Source: a virus | Direction: 5' to 3' (one strand) | IMG/VR virus record: IMGVR_UViG_3300030331_003909 | Span: 1 to 60,084 of that record | DNA: 60,084 bases | Shown: positions 1,399 to 57,865 of the stretch, one piece after another | How the letters are laid out: the number at the start of each line of letters is the position of its first letter | Position numbering within the stretch: position 1 is the first letter of the stretch | Notes under the pieces: generated by a model | The model's input: only the letters and a program-made list of their open reading frames with translations | Database searches by the model: none | Told to the model about the DNA's origin: nothing | Made by a program: the position numbers and the translations under genes

Positions 1399-1722
1399 AT
1401 GGCAGGAGAACAACAACAACAACCAGGAGCAAAATTAAGTGAATTTGCTAAAGCGGAAAGAGATAAACTTTTTCCTAAAAATTTATACAGCCCTAAAGCG
1501 GATAACTATGGTCCACAACACCCAAACGCGTTAAGTGATGGTGACGATAAAGGACGAGGTACTACTGTATTTTTAGGTATACGAGACCAAGAAACTGGGA
1601 CTAAAACTGATATCTTAACTAGGAAAGATAATATAAAAACTAACGCTTATAACTCAGGTAACGGTTACAGTGTACCTGATGATAACGCTGTGGGACCTAA
1701 TACAATTAATTTAACTTCTTAA
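1399..1722 (+). CDS. Hypothetical phage protein, probable virion component
   Basis: This 107-residue polar protein begins with a Gln-rich stretch (GEQQQQPG) and is rich in Asn, Gly and Asp with little hydrophobic core, which suggests an extended or disordered protein. It has its own upstream TATTTATA motif and heads a run of three genes (1399-2724). I recognise no family; a structural role is inferred only from the promoter motif and neighbours. Confidence 0.65.
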   Translation: MAGEQQQQPGAKLSEFAKAERDKLFPKNLYSPKADNYGPQHPNALSDGDDKGRGTTVFLGIRDQETGTKTDILTRKDNIKTNAYNSGNGYSVPDDNAVGPNTINLTS

Positions 1723-1733
1723 GTTTTTTAATT

Positions 1734-2096
1734 ATGAAACTTTACAACTCCCTTCGTGCGGTTATATTGGAAGTAGCAAACAGAGATGAAGTTCTGAACG
1801 CTATAAAAAATAAAAAAATTACGACCATATATTACGAAGGTGATACCGTTAATAATCCTGGGTGGAGAACAATAGAACCTGTATGTGCAGGGACCACTAA
1901 AAGGAATAACCCAGTTTTAAGAGCTTGGCAAACTGAGGGTGTTACTGATACCGAAGTACCTGGATGGAAATTTTTTAGATTAGACCGAATAAGAAACTGG
2001 CAACCAACAATGGACGGTTTTAATGAGGCTAGACCAAATTATAACCCTAACGGAGATAAAAGTATGAATCAAGTATGGGGGAACGCAAAATTTTAA
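1734..2096 (+). CDS. WYL-like small domain protein
   Basis: This 120-residue protein has the layout of a WYL-type SH3-like sensor domain: a short strand ending in IYYEGD (about 32-37), GWRTIEPVCAG (about 43-53), then NPVLRAWQTEG (about 59-69) and a GWKFFRLDRI strand (about 77-86). WYL domains in bacterial regulators bind ligands or nucleic acid and show this strand order with the terminal fRLDRI. Here the domain stands alone, without a helix-turn-helix. The N-terminus MKLYNSLRAVILE is helical and could be a separate targeting segment. Similarity is judged by eye, so the family call is moderate. Confidence 0.45.
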   Translation: MKLYNSLRAVILEVANRDEVLNAIKNKKITTIYYEGDTVNNPGWRTIEPVCAGTTKRNNPVLRAWQTEGVTDTEVPGWKFFRLDRIRNWQPTMDGFNEARPNYNPNGDKSMNQVWGNAKF

Positions 2097-16133: not shown

Positions 16134-16733
16134 ATGAGTTTTAATAAAGTAAAAGAGTTTGAGGAAGGGGTATCTAAATTTTTTGGTGCACCTTATGGGA
16201 TAGCTGTAGATAGTTGTACCCACGGAATTGAGTTGTGTTTAAGAAGAAATGGTGATAAACTTATACGTGTACCAAATAGGACTTACATATCAGTCCCTTT
16301 TTTAGCGGAAAAATTAGGCATAGATTTAATATGGGAAGATATAGAATGGAAAGATTATTATTATCTCACCAACGATATAATTGATGCTGCTGTATTATGG
16401 AAAAAAAACAGTTATATTCCAGGGACATTTATGTGTTTAAGTTTTCAATTTCAAAAACATTTATCATTAGGTCGTGGAGGAATGATTCTAACAGACAATA
16501 AAGAAGCCACTGACCACCTTAAAAAAATGTCTTATGATGGTAGAATCCCCAACATTCCTTGGAGAGACCAAGACATAGATACTCTAGGTTACCACTATTA
16601 CATGACTCCAGAAACAGCTCAAAAAGGTTTAGATAAATTAGATAAAGCGATTGAATCTAAACCCCGACAATGGGTTATAAATGATTGGCCCGACTTATCA
16701 AAAATGGAAGTGTTTAAAAAAATATATAAATAA
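16134..16733 (+). CDS. Half-size DegT/DnrJ/EryC1-type PLP protein
   Basis: This 199-residue protein resembles the large PLP domain of sugar aminotransferases. It has FFGAPYGIAVDSCTHGIELCL (a GTxA-like loop), VPNRTYISVPFL, an Asp84 in DIIDAAVLW where PLP N1 is bound, and SFQFQKHLSLGRGGMILTD with Lys108 in the aldimine position. Family members usually have 360-400 residues; the small C-terminal domain is missing here. The frame stays open for 22 codons after the stop (16734-16802), which could be a lost tail. It might be a compact 4-keto-sugar aminotransferase or a decayed one. Confidence 0.65.
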   Translation: MSFNKVKEFEEGVSKFFGAPYGIAVDSCTHGIELCLRRNGDKLIRVPNRTYISVPFLAEKLGIDLIWEDIEWKDYYYLTNDIIDAAVLWKKNSYIPGTFMCLSFQFQKHLSLGRGGMILTDNKEATDHLKKMSYDGRIPNIPWRDQDIDTLGYHYYMTPETAQKGLDKLDKAIESKPRQWVINDWPDLSKMEVFKKIYK

Positions 16734-44687: not shown

Positions 44688-46553
44688 TTATTTTACTTCT
44701 TCGTATTCAACGTCAGTTGCCTGTTCTTCATTATCCTCACTTGTAACTGGTTCTTCAGTTTGTTGATAGATTTTAGTAGTTATTGATTGCCATTCTTCAT
44801 TTAGTTTTTCTAAACTACTATCAATTAATCCTATATCTTCTTTTTGATGAGATTCTTTAAGATTATCTAGACATTCATTAAGTTTATTTACATCTTCCTC
44901 ACTTAATTTATCACCAAATTCTTTTATTTGTTTTTCGGTTTGGAAAATCATGGAATCAGCCTCATTTAATTTTTCTACTTTTTCCTTTTTTTCTTGGTCT
45001 TTGGCTTGATTCTGTTCAGCTTCCATTTTCATTCTTTCGATTTCTTCATCTGATAAACTACCTCCCGATTCAATTTTAATGTTCTGAGATTTTCCAGTAC
45101 CTTTATCTTTTGCACTCACACTAATAATACCATTAGCGTCAATATCGAAAGTCACCTCAATTTGTGGAATACCTCTAGGTGATGGTGGTATATCCGTTAG
45201 TTGGAATCTTCCTAGACTTCTATTATCGGTAGCCATAGGTCTTTCCCCTTGAAGTACGTGTATATCTACAGATGGTTGATTGTCTACTGCTGTAGAGAAT
45301 ACTTGAGACTTAGATGTCGGAATTGTACTGTTAGACTCAATTAATGTGGTCATTACTCCACCCATTGTTTCAATACCCAGTGAGAGTGGGGTGACATCTA
45401 ATAATAACACATCATTCACGTCTCCTGACAATACACCTCCTTGGATTGCTGCTCCCATCGCTACTACCTCATCTGGATTCACCCCCTTAGATGGTTTACG
45501 TTTAAAGAACTTTTCTACCGACTCTTGGATTATAGGAATTCTAGTAGAACCCCCAACTAAAATTACCTCATCAATTTCACTTACTTTAAGTTTAGCGTCT
45601 TTAAGAGCTTTTTCACAAGGTTTAATACTTCTCTTTACTAAATTATCCACCATTGTTTCAAACTTAGACCGTGATAGTGAAACTACTAAGTGTTTAGGTC
45701 CCGTAGAATCGGCAGTTAAATAAGGTAAATTAATTTCAGTATTAGTAGATGAAGATAATTCTACTTTTGCTTTTTCAGCCGCTTCTTTGATTCTTTGTAA
45801 AGCCATGGGGTCTTTACTAATGTCAACTCCGTTCTCTTTTTTAAACTCAGTGATTATCCAATCCATAATTACTTCGTCAAAATTATCCCCACCTAAATGA
45901 GTGTCACCATTTGTAGAAAGTACCTCAAAAACACCATCACCCATTTCTAAAATAGAAACATCAAAAGTACCACCACCTAAATCATATACTACAACTTTTT
46001 TATCTTTATTATCATCAAGACCATAAGCTAGTGAAGCTGCGGTTGGTTCATTTATAATTCTTAAAACATTTAATCCCGCAATTTCTCCCGCTTCTTTAGT
46101 TGCATTTCTTTGTGAATCATTAAAATAAGCTGGTACAGTAATAACAGCATCTGTCACTGTTTCACCCAAGTATTCTTCAGCTGTCTTTTTAAGGTTTTGT
46201 AAAACCACAGCTGAAATTTCTTGTGGAATATAATCCGTATCATCTATTTCTATACCTACACCATTATTATGTATTTGTGATACTTTATATGGCATTTTAC
46301 TTGCCTCTTTTTTAATTTCTGAGTATGTACTACCCATAAATCTTTTTACTGAGTAGATAGTTTTTTCAGGATTAGTGACCGCTTGTCGTTTAGCTGGGTC
46401 ACCAACTACCCTTTCTCCTTTATTTTTAAAAGCTACTACAGATGGCGTGGTTCTTTGACCTTCACCATTAACAATAACTTTAGGTTCGTTACCTTCAATT
46501 ACGGCAACACAGGAATTTGTTGTTCCTAAATCTATACCAATTACTTTTCCCAT
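44688..46553 (-). CDS. dnaK: DnaK (Hsp70) chaperone
   Basis: This full-length 621-residue Hsp70 refolds or holds client proteins with ATP. Present are the phosphate loop [13 protein letters not shown] (5-17), [50 protein letters not shown], the linker [10 protein letters not shown] and a substrate-binding domain with a lid. The C-terminus ends in an acidic EEVK. No DnaJ or GrpE gene is in the window, so host co-chaperones are probably used. It is very close to bacterial DnaK, suggesting fairly recent capture, and is divergent from the clpC gene. Confidence 0.97.
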
Positions 46554-46751: not shown

Positions 46752-48791
46752 ATGAAATTAGAAGGTAATTATGCTGATTTTGAGTCGTCAGAAGAGAAGA
46801 ACTCACCTAGAAGAGATAAAGGTACTAGTAGTAAAAGTACTACTCCAGTATTAGATAATTTTTCTAGAGATTTAATAAAATATGCGGAAGAGGGAAAATT
46901 AGACCCTGTAGTTGGAAGGAGTGAAGAAATTAATAGAATAGCTCAAATTTTATCCAGAAGGAAAAAGAATAATCCTGTGTTAATAGGTGAACCTGGATGT
47001 GGTAAAACTGCTTTAGTAGAAGGGTTAGCGATGAAAATAAGTGAAGGAAGATGTCCTAGAAATTTATTAGATAAAAAAATTATAGGATTAGATTTAACTT
47101 CTATTGTTGCGGGTACTAAATATAGAGGACAGTTCGAGGAAAGAATGAAAGCTATTATAGATGAGTTAAGAGAAAATCCCGATATAATAATTTTCATAGA
47201 TGAAATTCACACTGTTGTAGGTACTGGTAATGCTTCTGGTGCTTTAGATGCAGCTAATATTTTTAAACCAGCTTTAGCGAGGGGTGAAGTGCAATGTATA
47301 GGAGCTACAACTATAGACGAATATCGTGAGAATATTGAAAAGGATGGTGCACTAGAAAGACGGTTTCAAAAAGTCATGGTAGAACCTACAACTGTTGAGG
47401 AAACTCTACAAATTTTACAAAACTTAAAAGATAGGTATGAAGAACACCATAAAGTAAACTTTAGTCCTGAATCTTTAGAAGCGTGTGTTACATTAGCTGA
47501 AAGATATATAACACATAGAGAATTTCCAGATAAAGCTATTGACATTATGGATGAGGTAGGTGCGAAAGTACAAGTTGACATAGAATTTCCTAAGGAAATC
47601 GAAGACCTTCGTAATAAACTACAATCTTTAAAATTAGAAAAAGTCGAGGTTGTAAAATCTCAGAAGTATGAAAAAGCCGCAGAATTAAGAGACCAGGAAC
47701 GTCATGTGCTTGATGAATTAGAAGATAGAAAAGCTTCTTGGGAAATAGAAATGGAAGAACAAAGAGTGGGTGTTACAGAAGAAGATATTTACGAAGTGGT
47801 TTCCCAAATAACTAAAATACCATTAACTAAATTAGACACTAATGAGACTAAAAATTTATTATCTTTAGAGACCTCATTAAAAAAATTAGTAATGGGTCAA
47901 GATGAAGCTATTAGAAAAATAGCCAAAGCTATTAGAAGAAATAGAGTGGGGATTAGAGAAGTTAAAAAACCAATAGGTTCTTTTATGTTTTTAGGTTCAA
48001 CTGGTGTGGGTAAAACTCATTTAGCTAAGTCTATCGCGAAAGAAATTTTTGGTAATGAAGATTCATTGATTAGATTAGATATGTCAGAGTACAAAGAAAA
48101 ATTTAACTCTACTAGACTAATAGGTTCTCCTCCAGGATACGTAGGTTATAATGAAGGTGGCCAATTGACAGAGGCAGTTAGAAAAAAACCTTACTCAGTA
48201 ATACTACTAGATGAGATTGAGAAAGCTCATACAGACATATATGACCTATTACTTCAGATATTTGACGAGGGTCACCTTACTGATAGTCTGGGGAGAAAAA
48301 TAAATTTTAAGAACACATTAATTATAATGACATCTAATGTGGGGGCTAAACAAGTTAGTGAATTTAATAAACCTCTTGGTTTTTCTACAAAAGATAGTGA
48401 GTCTAGACTAGAAGAAGCTAAAGACCAAATAATTAAAAAAGCTTTAAAAAACACATTTAGACCCGAATTCTTAAATAGAATAGACCAAACAGTAGTCTTT
48501 AAACCTCTTCAGAAAAAAACTATTTCTAAAATTGTTAAATTAGAATTACTTAATCTTAAGGAACGTTTAAATGAAAAAAATTACAATATTATCTTTGATA
48601 ATTCTGTAACTAAATACGTAGTAGAGGAAGGATATGATGACAAATTTGGAGCCAGACCCATTAAAAGAGCTATTCAGAACGACATAGAGGATTTTATTTC
48701 TGAAAATATATTAAAAGGTGAAATATTGGAAGATGTTCACTACTCGTTAAGTGTTAATAAAGATAAGGAAGTAAAAATAATTACAGTTTAA
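46752..48791 (+). CDS. clpC: ClpC-type AAA+ unfoldase lacking the N-domain
   Basis: This 679-residue Hsp100 has two ATPase modules. D1 has Walker A GEPGCGKT (79-86) and Walker B IIFIDEIHT. A middle segment has the UVR-like motif KYEKAAELRDQE (305-316), typical of ClpC. D2 has Walker A GSTGVGKT (415-422), LLDEIEKAH and a pore-type GYVGY (462-466). LGF (542-544) sits where ClpC has the V/I/L-GF loop that docks ClpP. Normal ClpC has about 820-850 residues; the N-terminal Clp-N repeats are absent and replaced by about 35 polar residues. It could feed substrates to host ClpP with altered adaptor choice. Confidence 0.92.
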   Translation: MKLEGNYADFESSEEKNSPRRDKGTSSKSTTPVLDNFSRDLIKYAEEGKLDPVVGRSEEINRIAQILSRRKKNNPVLIGEPGCGKTALVEGLAMKISEGRCPRNLLDKKIIGLDLTSIVAGTKYRGQFEERMKAIIDELRENPDIIIFIDEIHTVVGTGNASGALDAANIFKPALARGEVQCIGATTIDEYRENIEKDGALERRFQKVMVEPTTVEETLQILQNLKDRYEEHHKVNFSPESLEACVTLAERYITHREFPDKAIDIMDEVGAKVQVDIEFPKEIEDLRNKLQSLKLEKVEVVKSQKYEKAAELRDQERHVLDELEDRKASWEIEMEEQRVGVTEEDIYEVVSQITKIPLTKLDTNETKNLLSLETSLKKLVMGQDEAIRKIAKAIRRNRVGIREVKKPIGSFMFLGSTGVGKTHLAKSIAKEIFGNEDSLIRLDMSEYKEKFNSTRLIGSPPGYVGYNEGGQLTEAVRKKPYSVILLDEIEKAHTDIYDLLLQIFDEGHLTDSLGRKINFKNTLIIMTSNVGAKQVSEFNKPLGFSTKDSESRLEEAKDQIIKKALKNTFRPEFLNRIDQTVVFKPLQKKTISKIVKLELLNLKERLNEKNYNIIFDNSVTKYVVEEGYDDKFGARPIKRAIQNDIEDFISENILKGEILEDVHYSLSVNKDKEVKIITV

Positions 48792-50336: not shown

Positions 50337-51158
50337 TTATAAAAGATTATATGGGTGTGATTGAGGTTTATGTATAAACTCGTATTTTTTATTACCTAGT
50401 TGGTTTACTACCTTAAATCCTAGATTTATAGCATTTTGTACGTCTTCTACCACAACATACTCATATGGGGTGTGGTAACGATAGTAACCCGCTGCAAAAT
50501 TTAAACAAGGAAAGTTAAATTTTTTCTTTAACATCATAGTGTCTGTGTAAGGGTGGTTTAACCACTTGGTAAACCCGTGTTCTAAAATTATATCTTTTAC
50601 TGAACCAAAAAATCTACTTTCTTCTTCGTATAATTTAACCCCCATAAGAGTTTTACTCATTGTATCATTTTCTGTAGAATCAAACTGAATAGCGTACCCT
50701 ACATTTGTAAAGAACTCTGGGTCCGCCTCTTTAGAACCGTTACATCCTGTTTCTTCCGCTACTGGTAGAAATACTTTACATGAGTCTAATTTTTCTAGTA
50801 ATTGTAAACAGATAAACACACCTGCTTTATCGTCTCCACCAATACCAGTAGGTAAACCTTCTTCTTTGTCGTAAGCTTTTAACGCTAATTTAAGTTCACC
50901 TTGTGCGTTAGGTAGTTGTTCCTCCATAACCTCCATTTCGGTAATACTATGAACACTATCAAGGTGAGCTACCAAACAAGGATAGGTCGAAGAGTCTCCT
51001 TTAGTAATATAGAGACTCCCCAACTTATCTTGATAATAATTAACCGAGTCTAGAGAACTAATATAATTAATAACGTGTTCTATGAGTCTATCCTCCTCCC
51101 AAGTATGGGTAGGAACGGAAAGTAAGTTTTTTAATTTATTTAGTGTTTCTCTATTCAT
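50337..51158 (-). CDS. M20-type metallopeptidase (PepT-like)
   Basis: The 273-residue protein shows the metal-ligand pattern of M20 peptidases: LVAHLDSVHS (His and Asp), GIGGDDKAGV (bridging Asp), PVAEETGCNGS (catalytic Glu pair), IQFDSTEND (Asp) and YYRYHTPYEYV (final His). It is short compared with PepT (about 400), because the lid/dimerisation domain seems reduced. Such enzymes release amino acids from small peptides; in a phage it could recycle peptides or process a virion component. It is rarely described in phages. Confidence 0.8.
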   Translation of the reverse strand: MNRETLNKLKNLLSVPTHTWEEDRLIEHVINYISSLDSVNYYQDKLGSLYITKGDSSTYPCLVAHLDSVHSITEMEVMEEQLPNAQGELKLALKAYDKEEGLPTGIGGDDKAGVFICLQLLEKLDSCKVFLPVAEETGCNGSKEADPEFFTNVGYAIQFDSTENDTMSKTLMGVKLYEEESRFFGSVKDIILEHGFTKWLNHPYTDTMMLKKKFNFPCLNFAAGYYRYHTPYEYVVVEDVQNAINLGFKVVNQLGNKKYEFIHKPQSHPYNLL

Positions 51159-51246: not shown

Positions 51247-51269
51247 CTTTGTATTCATCACACAAACAT

Positions 51270-51354
51270 GCTCGGGTGGTGGAATAGGTAGACACGAGGG
51301 ACTTAAAATCCCTTGGCCATTGTGGCCGTGCGGGTTCGATTCCCGCCCCGAGTA
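51270..51354 (+). tRNA. tRNA-Leu (UAA)
   Basis: This class II tRNA has a 7-bp acceptor GCTCGGG/CCCGAGT (first pair G-U), a T-arm GCGGG-TTCGATT-CCCGC, a long variable arm built on GGCC/GGCC, and an anticodon loop CTTAAAA giving UAA. CCA is not fully encoded. It reads UUA, the most used Leu codon of this AT-rich genome. Confidence 0.92.
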
Positions 51355-51361
51355 CCCAAAT

Positions 51362-51435
51362 GCACCCGTAGCTCAGCTGGATAGAGCAACTGCCTTCTAA
51401 GCAGTAGGTCATAGGTTCGAATCCTATCGGGTGTA
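51362..51435 (+). tRNA. tRNA-Arg (UCU)
   Basis: A canonical cloverleaf: acceptor GCACCCG/CGGGTGT, D-arm GCTC/GAGC, anticodon stem ACTGC/GCAGT with loop CTTCTAA (anticodon UCU), and T-arm ATAGG/CCTAT. It reads AGA, the dominant Arg codon here. It follows tRNA-Leu by 7 nt. Confidence 0.93.
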
Positions 51436-51443
51436 CTAAATAT

Positions 51444-51520
51444 AGACGGGTATCCCCTCAAGCTTATACCTTGTAGAAAGGGTAACTGGTTACATGTGGG
51501 TTCAAGTCCCATTCCGTCTA
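51444..51520 (+). tRNA. Degenerate tRNA-like element
   Basis: It has an acceptor AGACGGG/TCCGTCT (one G-U), a perfect T-arm GTGGG-TTCAAGT-CCCAT, a discriminator A and a tRNA-like overall length of 77 nt. The D and anticodon arms do not fold canonically: GGTAT/ATACC and CCTT/AAGG can pair, but no 5-bp stem with a 7-nt loop results. TTGTAGA could hold a GUA (Tyr) anticodon. It may be a decayed tRNA, or one processed or folded unusually. Confidence 0.4.
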
Positions 51521-51577: not shown

Positions 51578-51983
51578 GGGGATGACTGGAATTGATTGAC
51601 GTTAGTTTGATTGATATCAGCACGTCGAGGCTAAACTAACCTTGTAAAACTGGTTTATACTTCTAATCGGCAACGTATTAGATACTATGACAACTCTCGG
51701 TCTTATCCGTGAGGAGTCAACTGTGGCTGTAGCGTAATTAAATTACGACTAAGGCTCCATCTCGTCTAAAGAATTTAAGATTTGTGTCTTTAGTATATGA
51801 GGTGTCGACAGACAAATCGACCGCACCAATATCATTAAGGTGGTTAAATAATATTATGGTTGGGGCTTCTGGATGGTTGTTTATTCTAGAAGGGTAAGTC
51901 CGAGGATAAAAGAATAAACTAAGCGTGTAGGATAGGTACAATAGACAACGGACAAGACGGGGGTTCGACTCCCCCCATCTCCA
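51578..51983 (+). ncRNA. ssrA: tmRNA with a long (22-residue) tag
   Basis: The RNA frees stalled ribosomes and tags the nascent protein. The tRNA-like ends match: GGGGATG pairs with CATCTCC, followed by A, and the T-arm is GGGGG-TTCGACT-CCCCC; the 3' part CTAAGCGTGTAG is as in bacterial tmRNA. PK1 is visible (CGAGG/CCTTG and TAAAC/GTTTA). Aligning UAAUC-GGC with E. coli UAGUC-GCA puts the resume codon at 51669. The frame then runs 22 codons, starting GNVLDT and ending STVAVA, to TAA at 51735-51737, which sits in a CGTAAT/ATTACG hairpin. Usual tags have about 8-15 residues. Confidence 0.92.
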
Positions 51984-51991
51984 CTAATAAA

Positions 51992-52018
51992 AAAAGGTCC
52001 CGGTTGGGACCTTTTATG
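51992..52018 (+). terminator. Rho-independent terminator after tmRNA
   Basis: AAAAGGTCCC pairs with GGGACCTTTT around GGTT, followed by T-rich sequence. It ends the tRNA/tmRNA transcript. The A-tract also makes it usable from the minus-strand gene that ends at 52040. Confidence 0.88.
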
Positions 52019-56947: not shown

Positions 56948-57865
56948 ATGAAAATAAACAAATTACTACTTTTTCTTACCACTATCATAACAGTTTTTAC
57001 GAGTTGTGAAAAATACGACTTTGAACAAGACCTAGCCACTATAGAAGGAACTCAATGGGTTCTAGTTAGTGGTAAAGTTTATACCGAAAATTTGACTACT
57101 GGGGAAAAATTATATTATGACCATTTTGATAGTAGTAAAACAACATCCAATTTAGACATTTTTGGTGGTTCTAGTGTGGATATTGATATACTGGAACAAG
57201 GTGTCACTAACTGGTATTTTTATGATGGCACTTTTATGGTAAATAATTTAAATACTTACGATTATAACACACAAGGTAGTGGAATACGTAAACAATACTC
57301 AATATATGGGGTGCCTCCCAATGGTTCATCTAGAAATATAGAAGTTATAGACTTTGATGATAATGTAATGTACATTAAATTATATGAGTCCAACGAATCT
57401 CATAATGGGGACAATTATCATTATTTTTCAACACTTACATTTGTAAGGGTGGGTTATAGTTGTCCTGAATGTGGTACTCCACCTAACACTGATTATACCT
57501 ATATGGGCACAGTTACTAATAGTGTAGAACCTGTTCCTGGACATTTACAATTAAATGGTACCTCATGGGTTATCACTAGATATGACGATGGTATGACACC
57601 AGTGTACCCTAATGATACTATTAATTTTATTAGTGGTGTTACTTATAATATAAATGGGTCTAATGTAAACACCTATTCATTTTCCAATAATACTGGTAAT
57701 AATTTATACAATTTAACACTTTATGAATGTGTTACTTTGGGGGGCAATTATTCAGGGCAAGTGGGATTGTCTTTCATCGATGAAGGAGAATTAAATAACC
57801 TTACAATGAATGGTATATTTGGAACCTCTGGTTCTATTAATGTGTGGATGGAGCGAATTAATTAG
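56948..57865 (+). CDS. Secreted lipoprotein
   Basis: The 305-residue protein has a lipoprotein signal peptide: MKINK, a hydrophobic core LLLFLTTIITVF and the lipobox FTSC with Cys20, then CEKYDF, typical of Bacteroidota lipoproteins. The mature part has two similar beta-rich halves, each with a (G/N)(T)(Q/S)W(V) start (IEGTQWVLVSGK and LNGTSWVITRYD), like lipocalin-type domains. With a strong host-type promoter it may be made early and placed at the cell surface, e.g. to block superinfection; that role is inference. Confidence 0.8.
   Translation: MKINKLLLFLTTIITVFTSCEKYDFEQDLATIEGTQWVLVSGKVYTENLTTGEKLYYDHFDSSKTTSNLDIFGGSSVDIDILEQGVTNWYFYDGTFMVNNLNTYDYNTQGSGIRKQYSIYGVPPNGSSRNIEVIDFDDNVMYIKLYESNESHNGDNYHYFSTLTFVRVGYSCPECGTPPNTDYTYMGTVTNSVEPVPGHLQLNGTSWVITRYDDGMTPVYPNDTINFISGVTYNINGSNVNTYSFSNNTGNNLYNLTLYECVTLGGNYSGQVGLSFIDEGELNNLTMNGIFGTSGSINVWMERIN

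Follow-up and report, generated by a model that had tools for sequence, protein, structure and literature searches.

A phage tmRNA family with a long altered tag and an in-frame hairpin, encoded near a phage ClpC and a PepT-like peptidase

The phage described here carries a tmRNA (ssrA) gene with a long, altered tag and a hairpin inside the tag frame, and this combination is no one-off but is conserved across a large phage family. In that family the tmRNA gene almost always lies near genes for a ClpC-type unfoldase and a peptidase, which suggests a private protein-recycling line. It is quite possible, although we propose it tentatively, that trans-translation has been rewritten in these phages, such that a tag of 21-22 amino acids, dual-coded as peptide and hairpin, would shift rescued chains from host ClpXP to phage ClpC acting with host ClpP and the PepT-like peptidase, in a linked line of tagging, unfolding and recycling during infection.

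The window, that is, the whole stretch of DNA analysed, comprises 60,084 nucleotides of a 62,088-bp IMG/VR virus contig (IMGVR_UViG_3300030331_003909). Its T4-type portal, capsid and terminase genes, together with the nature of the source record, agree with the phage origin proposed in an initial annotation, which had been made from the sequence alone. Flavobacterium phages are among the best named matches of the capsid, which shows similarity to Flavobacterium phage immuto; from these matches, from the relatives of the peptidase in Cellulophaga phages and from the Bacteroidota-type resume context of the tmRNA, we infer a Bacteroidota host. The window also encodes, at 56948-57865 (+), a protein without family match that opens with a Bacteroidota-style lipoprotein-type signal (FTSCEKYDFEQD), which is unusual in a phage.

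The tmRNA gene and its tag frame

The gene occupies positions 51578..51986 (+) of the window, where the covariance model RF00023 aligned end to end (cmscan; model 1-374 of 374, 111.9 bits, E 6e-43), well above the gathering cut-off of 47 bits; ARAGORN missed it. The initial annotation had read this region as a phage tmRNA and had named a covariance-model scan as the way to check it, and the full-length match settles the identification along with the features that follow and the homologous tmRNAs of related phages. The 5' half of the acceptor stem, GGGGATG (51578..51584, +), pairs with CATCTCC (51976-51982) at 7/7 positions, including G3-U70, the identity pair for alanyl-tRNA synthetase (AlaRS), and 7/7 pairs with G3-U70 are also present in 51 members of the phage tmRNA family. 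The T-loop reads TTCGACT. The discriminator base is 51983, the end given in the initial annotation, and as the last three nucleotides read CTA in place of CCA, CCA must be added. The first helix of pseudoknot 1 (TAAACTA / TGGTTTA; 51632..51657, +) was placed by the cmscan alignment, and the helix-5 hairpin with the stop codon of the tag (51730..51751, +) by that alignment together with reading of the sequence.

Downstream of the gene lies a hairpin resembling an intrinsic terminator (51992..52015, +), and the gene is preceded on its own strand by tRNA-Leu(TAA) (51269-51358, +) and tRNA-Arg(TCT) (51362-51436, +). A third tRNA-like element, without an ARAGORN call in the window, is found between tRNA-Arg and the tmRNA (51443-51520), and at the matching place in the near relatives L009 and L010 ARAGORN calls a tRNA-Ile(TAT). 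Group I introns (RF00028) split the T-loop region of two other tmRNAs of the family, L026 at 1711-1941 (-) and L440 at 16459-16675 (-), with scores of 71.3 and 72.5 bits; bacterial tmRNAs with group I introns are already known (PMC11915505), and these two cases are in phages.

The tag frame runs from GGC at 51669 to TAA at 51735-51737 (51669..51737, +) and holds 22 codons before the stop (GNVLDTMTTLGLIREESTVAVA + TAA), which falls within the helix-5 hairpin. As the initial annotation had claimed, the tag ends in VAVA and not in LAA, and it differs from the canonical Bacteroidota tag, which is short and ends in YA[LM]AA. Ordinary Bacteroidota tmRNAs resume in the context UUUAACU/GGC GAR (the slash preceding the resume codon), as in ...UUUUAACU/GGC GAA AAU AAC UAC GCU CUU GCU GCU UAA (GENNYALAA) or sequences near it. 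The phage relatives show the same context, as in ...UUUUUAACU/GGC GAA ACA AUC..., with the tag GETIAKLQAVGLIRTEEVTVA. Because UAAYY/GGC is common to the phage family and the canonical tmRNAs, the resume codon is GGC. A resume codon in another frame, yielding a short ordinary tag, had been raised in the initial annotation as the alternative; we rejected it, since the other frames meet early stops or sit off the resume context, and the UUUAACU/GGC of the window matches that of ordinary Bacteroidota tmRNAs. Likewise, the 17-aa tags that ARAGORN predicts for some relatives (AKLSTLGLIRTEEVTVA) begin at an in-frame GCA, and homology at UAACU/GGC moves the resume codon four codons upstream. Judged by this sequence comparison, residues 1 and 2 of the tag are still host-like (G, followed by E or N), and the remainder is replaced.

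A conserved peptide and a hairpin in the same codons

Related phages were found first through the genes neighbouring the window tmRNA, and the tag set was enlarged by a profile search of loci ascertained through ClpC. The resulting IMG/VR set comprises 74 distinct sequences of the tag and 61 peptides, every one of 21-22 amino acids, with the consensus G[NE][VT][ILF]xK[LM]xx[VLI]GL[IVL]RxExxVxVA. G11 is invariant, L12 is found in 71/74 and the C-terminal alanine in 73/74. Mean entropy at the three codon positions is 0.88, 0.46 and 1.33 bits, respectively, and this excess variability of third positions indicates selection on the tag peptide. Two degenerate codon patterns (GL[IL]RxExV[AT]VA with its stop) matched 73 IMG/VR stretches, all of which read as tmRNA tag frames, so that among these 73/73 matches no phage protein with the C-terminal motif of the tag was seen. 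The exact degenerate pattern, which covers that pattern and not all divergent variants, had 0 matches in 84,980 bacterial and archaeal species; the scan works, as a pattern for the canonical Bacteroidota tag (GENNYALAA type), used as a positive control, found at least 117 stretches in the same collection. Among named phages, a similarity search with the window tmRNA returned short matches at the tmRNA ends only, and a cultured member was not found.

The initial annotation had also noted that part of the frame could fold, CTCTCGG pairing with CCGTGAG. Such a hairpin, with one U-U mismatch, is present in the window (51694-51700 with 51707-51713, +), and the corresponding signal at codons 8-17 extends across the family. 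The whole window tag folds at -19.6 kcal/mol, compared with -11.5 +/- 2.8 kcal/mol for its synonymous recodings (fraction 0.006). In 20 representatives less than 80% identical to one another, codons 8-17 of each tag fold more stably than recodings with synonymous codons (Stouffer Z about -5.5), and over the family representatives the best-stem sum for these codons is 247 vs 183 +/- 12 for recodings; the remaining windows of the tags show a weak folding effect or none (z -2.6 to 2.3). The register of the hairpin varies by 1-4 bases among lineages (registers 26-30). A fixed-register covariation model was rejected, as pairing in the register of the window reaches 43% over the family, no higher than in slid registers. 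Since the signal is positional and the register shifts, no single covariation model fits, and synonymous recoding was used instead. On the most economical reading, the in-frame hairpin would keep the additional codons of the long tag in a folded state between pseudoknot 1 and helix 5.

The huge phage LR756508.1 (484 kb) has a tmRNA at L198 1501-1947, in which the frame after AACU/GGC could encode a 36-aa tag (GVNNADYESAGFTAEDFAQMDGESLYHGSERKPAAV). A second match in LR756508.1 (L202 1501-1612, 112 nt) looks like a mini tmRNA consisting of the tRNA-like domain only, comparable to that of mycobacteriophage DS6A.

ClpC, the peptidase and their linkage to the tmRNA

The window encodes a ClpC-type AAA+ unfoldase at 46752..48791 (+), and the claim of the initial annotation that the phage has its own ClpC is confirmed by its Pfam domains (AAA_2, AAA_lid_9, ClpB_D2-small and UVR) and by alignment to S. 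aureus ClpC, residues 145-802 of which are covered by the profile of the phage family. Two AAA+ modules with Walker motifs, the D2-small domain, the UVR-type middle domain and an [LIV]GF loop (LGF in the window) are all present, as in ClpC of S. aureus and B. subtilis. Unlike those proteins, the window ClpC and the whole phage ClpC family have no N-terminal repeat domain and start at about ClpC residue 145, and therefore offer no docking site for N-domain adaptors. The [VIL]GF loop, by which ClpA, ClpC and ClpX dock on ClpP and which is missing from disaggregases such as ClpB, is found in 80/80 members of the phage family. In the contig 3300034374_010855 (L014 / L052), a frameshift splits ClpC into 432 + 253 aa, while the gene is intact in the near-identical 3300034375_011589; the split is probably an assembly error.

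As to other partners, a ClpP gene is found in 4/45 tag-bearing records, and some phages of the tag family may own a whole ClpCP protease; four relatives (L109-L112) have ClpP frames of 221-262 aa, two of them in records of more than 190 kb. SmpB was detected in 0/45 tag-bearing records and not in the record of the window. Divergent from ClpC in the window lies a gene for DnaK (Hsp70; 44688..46553, -), a full-length family match (Pfam HSP70; NCBIfam DnaK, above its cut-off). DnaK adjoins ClpC in only 6/79 related loci, and we rejected it as a constant partner.

Between ClpC and the tmRNA, the window encodes a metallopeptidase of 272 aa resembling PepT and M42 enzymes (50337..51158, -). It retains the metal-ligand motifs H-x-D, GGDD and EETG, and its AlphaFold model (pLDDT 93) matches PepT and M42 aminopeptidases best, with PepT 3gb0 as the best PDB match; it thus shares both the fold, as modelled, and the metal-binding residues of PepT (M20B) and the M42 TET aminopeptidases. 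However, it is only ~11-17% identical to their solved members, which have roughly 300-420 aa, and it scores 27.7 bits against the NCBIfam PepT models, far under the curated cut-off of 255, so that we call it PepT-like and not PepT. Relatives of the peptidase occur in Cellulophaga phages, where it stands alone.

A ClpC-type gene is present in 45/45 tag-bearing records tested. Counting from ClpC, the tmRNA lies 1,990-6,312 bp downstream on the same strand in 56/79 loci, and in all 56 the PepT-like peptidase lies between the two, on the minus strand in 44 and on the plus strand in 12. Since the strand of the peptidase differs among loci, the region has undergone rearrangement that did not separate ClpC, peptidase and tmRNA. 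Of the 23 ClpC loci without a tmRNA, 21 are on contigs that end within 3.7 kb, and two, L116 and L177, have ample downstream DNA (6.65 kb and 5.5 kb) and no tmRNA. A count from the capsid gene over 23 records gave 10 with both ClpC and tmRNA, 12 with neither, among them several fragments, 0 with the tmRNA alone and one with ClpC only, which ends 1.0 kb past the ClpC match; a further candidate for the ClpC-only class, G084, was rejected, as its tmRNA is there, split by a group I intron. Both genes are absent from Flavobacterium phage immuto, Microcystis phage Mel-JY01 and the contig G069, and in the huge phages LR756502 and LR745206 a related ClpC is present and no tmRNA was detected. The window genes between ClpC and the tmRNA are on the opposite strand, which speaks against a simple operon, and as the phages that have both the tag and ClpC are of common descent, linkage alone is no proof of cooperation.

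Possible fates of tagged chains

On the evidence of sequence and gene order, we consider it rather probable that the phage tmRNA is functional and that its tag serves as a degron for the phage ClpC working on ClpP, with the resulting peptides recycled by the peptidase; we hold to this degree of confidence because recognition of the tag by ClpC is itself inferred and much of the linkage could stem from common ancestry. Ribosomes would stall in the infected cell through phage attack on host mRNA and through damage to phage mRNA, and host AlaRS, EF-Tu and SmpB would deliver the phage tmRNA to them for rescue. The stalled chain would then gain alanine plus G-N-V-L-D-T-M-T-T-L-G-L-I-R-E-E-S-T-V-A-V-A in place of the 9-residue host tag of the GENNYALAA type. 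The conserved interior of the tag, K-[LM]-x-x-[VLI]-G-L-[IVL]-R-x-E, could form, together with its small hydrophobic end V-x-V-A, a degron matched to the N-domain-less ClpC, whose [VIL]GF loops would dock on host ClpP (or on phage ClpP in some relatives), so that the tagged chain would be unfolded and fed in. Finally, the PepT-like peptidase would break the peptides down to amino acids from which phage proteins could be made. The initial annotation had suggested that an altered tag could redirect rescued proteins away from, or toward, a different protease. Of this suggestion, the part that relates the tag to another protease, here the phage ClpC, has strong circumstantial support: the genes remain linked although the peptidase between them has been rearranged, and what is conserved in the tag is its amino-acid sequence.

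A less likely reading, which nevertheless retains some weight, is that the long tag acts as a general C-terminal degron for host ClpXP or ClpCP, that the substrates of the phage ClpC are unrelated and that the linkage reflects the ancestry of one phage group. The C-termini VAVA, VVAA and AVVA do resemble the small hydrophobic C-terminal degrons generally known from ssrA variants, and the linked records all belong to related T4-type phages. However, whereas host tags have 9 residues, the phage tag stays at 21-22 and preserves a central GL[IVL]R, for which a plain C-terminal degron would have no need, and linkage holds despite strand flips of the peptidase and changes in spacing. It is improbable that the tag is instead protective, the chains being rescued and the tagged phage proteins steered away from host proteases, stable or relocated, while ClpC acts as a disaggregase. 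In favour of this, the tag no longer matches YALAA and the window phage encodes DnaK, a disaggregase partner, but DnaK is rarely next to ClpC, the constant neighbour is a peptidase and not a chaperone, the ClpP loop that ClpB-like disaggregases lack is retained throughout the phage ClpCs, and the near-universal C-terminal alanine argues for a C-terminal degron over a purely protective tag.

We give very little credence to the idea that the frame is conserved for its RNA only, as a structured spacer with an incidental or untranslated peptide: the hairpin at codons 8-17 does beat synonymous recodings, yet codon positions 1 and 2 vary less than position 3, the amino acids stay while the hairpin register shifts, and length changes by whole codons only (21 or 22), with a stop codon in every case. 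It is equally implausible that the tmRNA gene is a passenger, or was left behind by integration, and has no function during lytic growth. Although tmRNA genes often serve as integration sites and three other viral contigs bear canonical Bacteroidota tmRNAs, the acceptor stem, G3-U70 and the tag are intact in dozens of divergent phages and the tag pattern occurs in no sampled bacterium.

The phage tmRNA can be set beside several known systems. With the chromosomal tmRNAs of Bacteroidota (GENNYALAA / GEENYALAA), the phage tmRNA shares its fold, G3-U70, UUUAACU/GGC GAR, the start of the tag with G and E or N, and the stop in helix 5; it differs in being phage-borne, in a tag of 21-22 aa instead of 9, in lacking YALAA, and in its inner GL[IVL]R and in-frame hairpin. 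Phage-borne ssrA genes are known from mycobacteriophages Bxz1, Wildcat and others and from Bacillus phage G (PMC4131195), while some huge phages are described as encoding SmpB as well as a tmRNA (PMC7162821). Our phage resembles Bxz1, Wildcat, phage G and the Streptomyces phages in carrying the gene, but the Streptomyces phage tag ANSKFAFALAA is short and ends in ALAA, and for the known phage tmRNAs we found no description of a linked phage ClpC and peptidase in the literature searched. A precedent for a long tag with a protease other than ClpXP is mf-SsrA of the mollicute Mesoplasma florum, whose longer tag is matched to Lon (PMC9382460), although it differs in sequence (NYAFA end), in being chromosomal and in using Lon, not ClpC. 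No report of the tag family, or of linkage of tag, ClpC and peptidase, was found in the literature searched, subscription papers lying outside its scope.

In summary, a tag that is replaced, kept under selection and travelling with a dedicated unfoldase and peptidase offers a specific candidate answer on the purpose of phage tmRNAs, namely that the phage would gain control of what becomes of stalled chains and would not merely add more tmRNA. The tag and the N-domain-less ClpC would supply a natural orthogonal degron-protease pair for Bacteroidota, and the tag frame would be a case of one short stretch coding for a degron and an RNA hairpin together.
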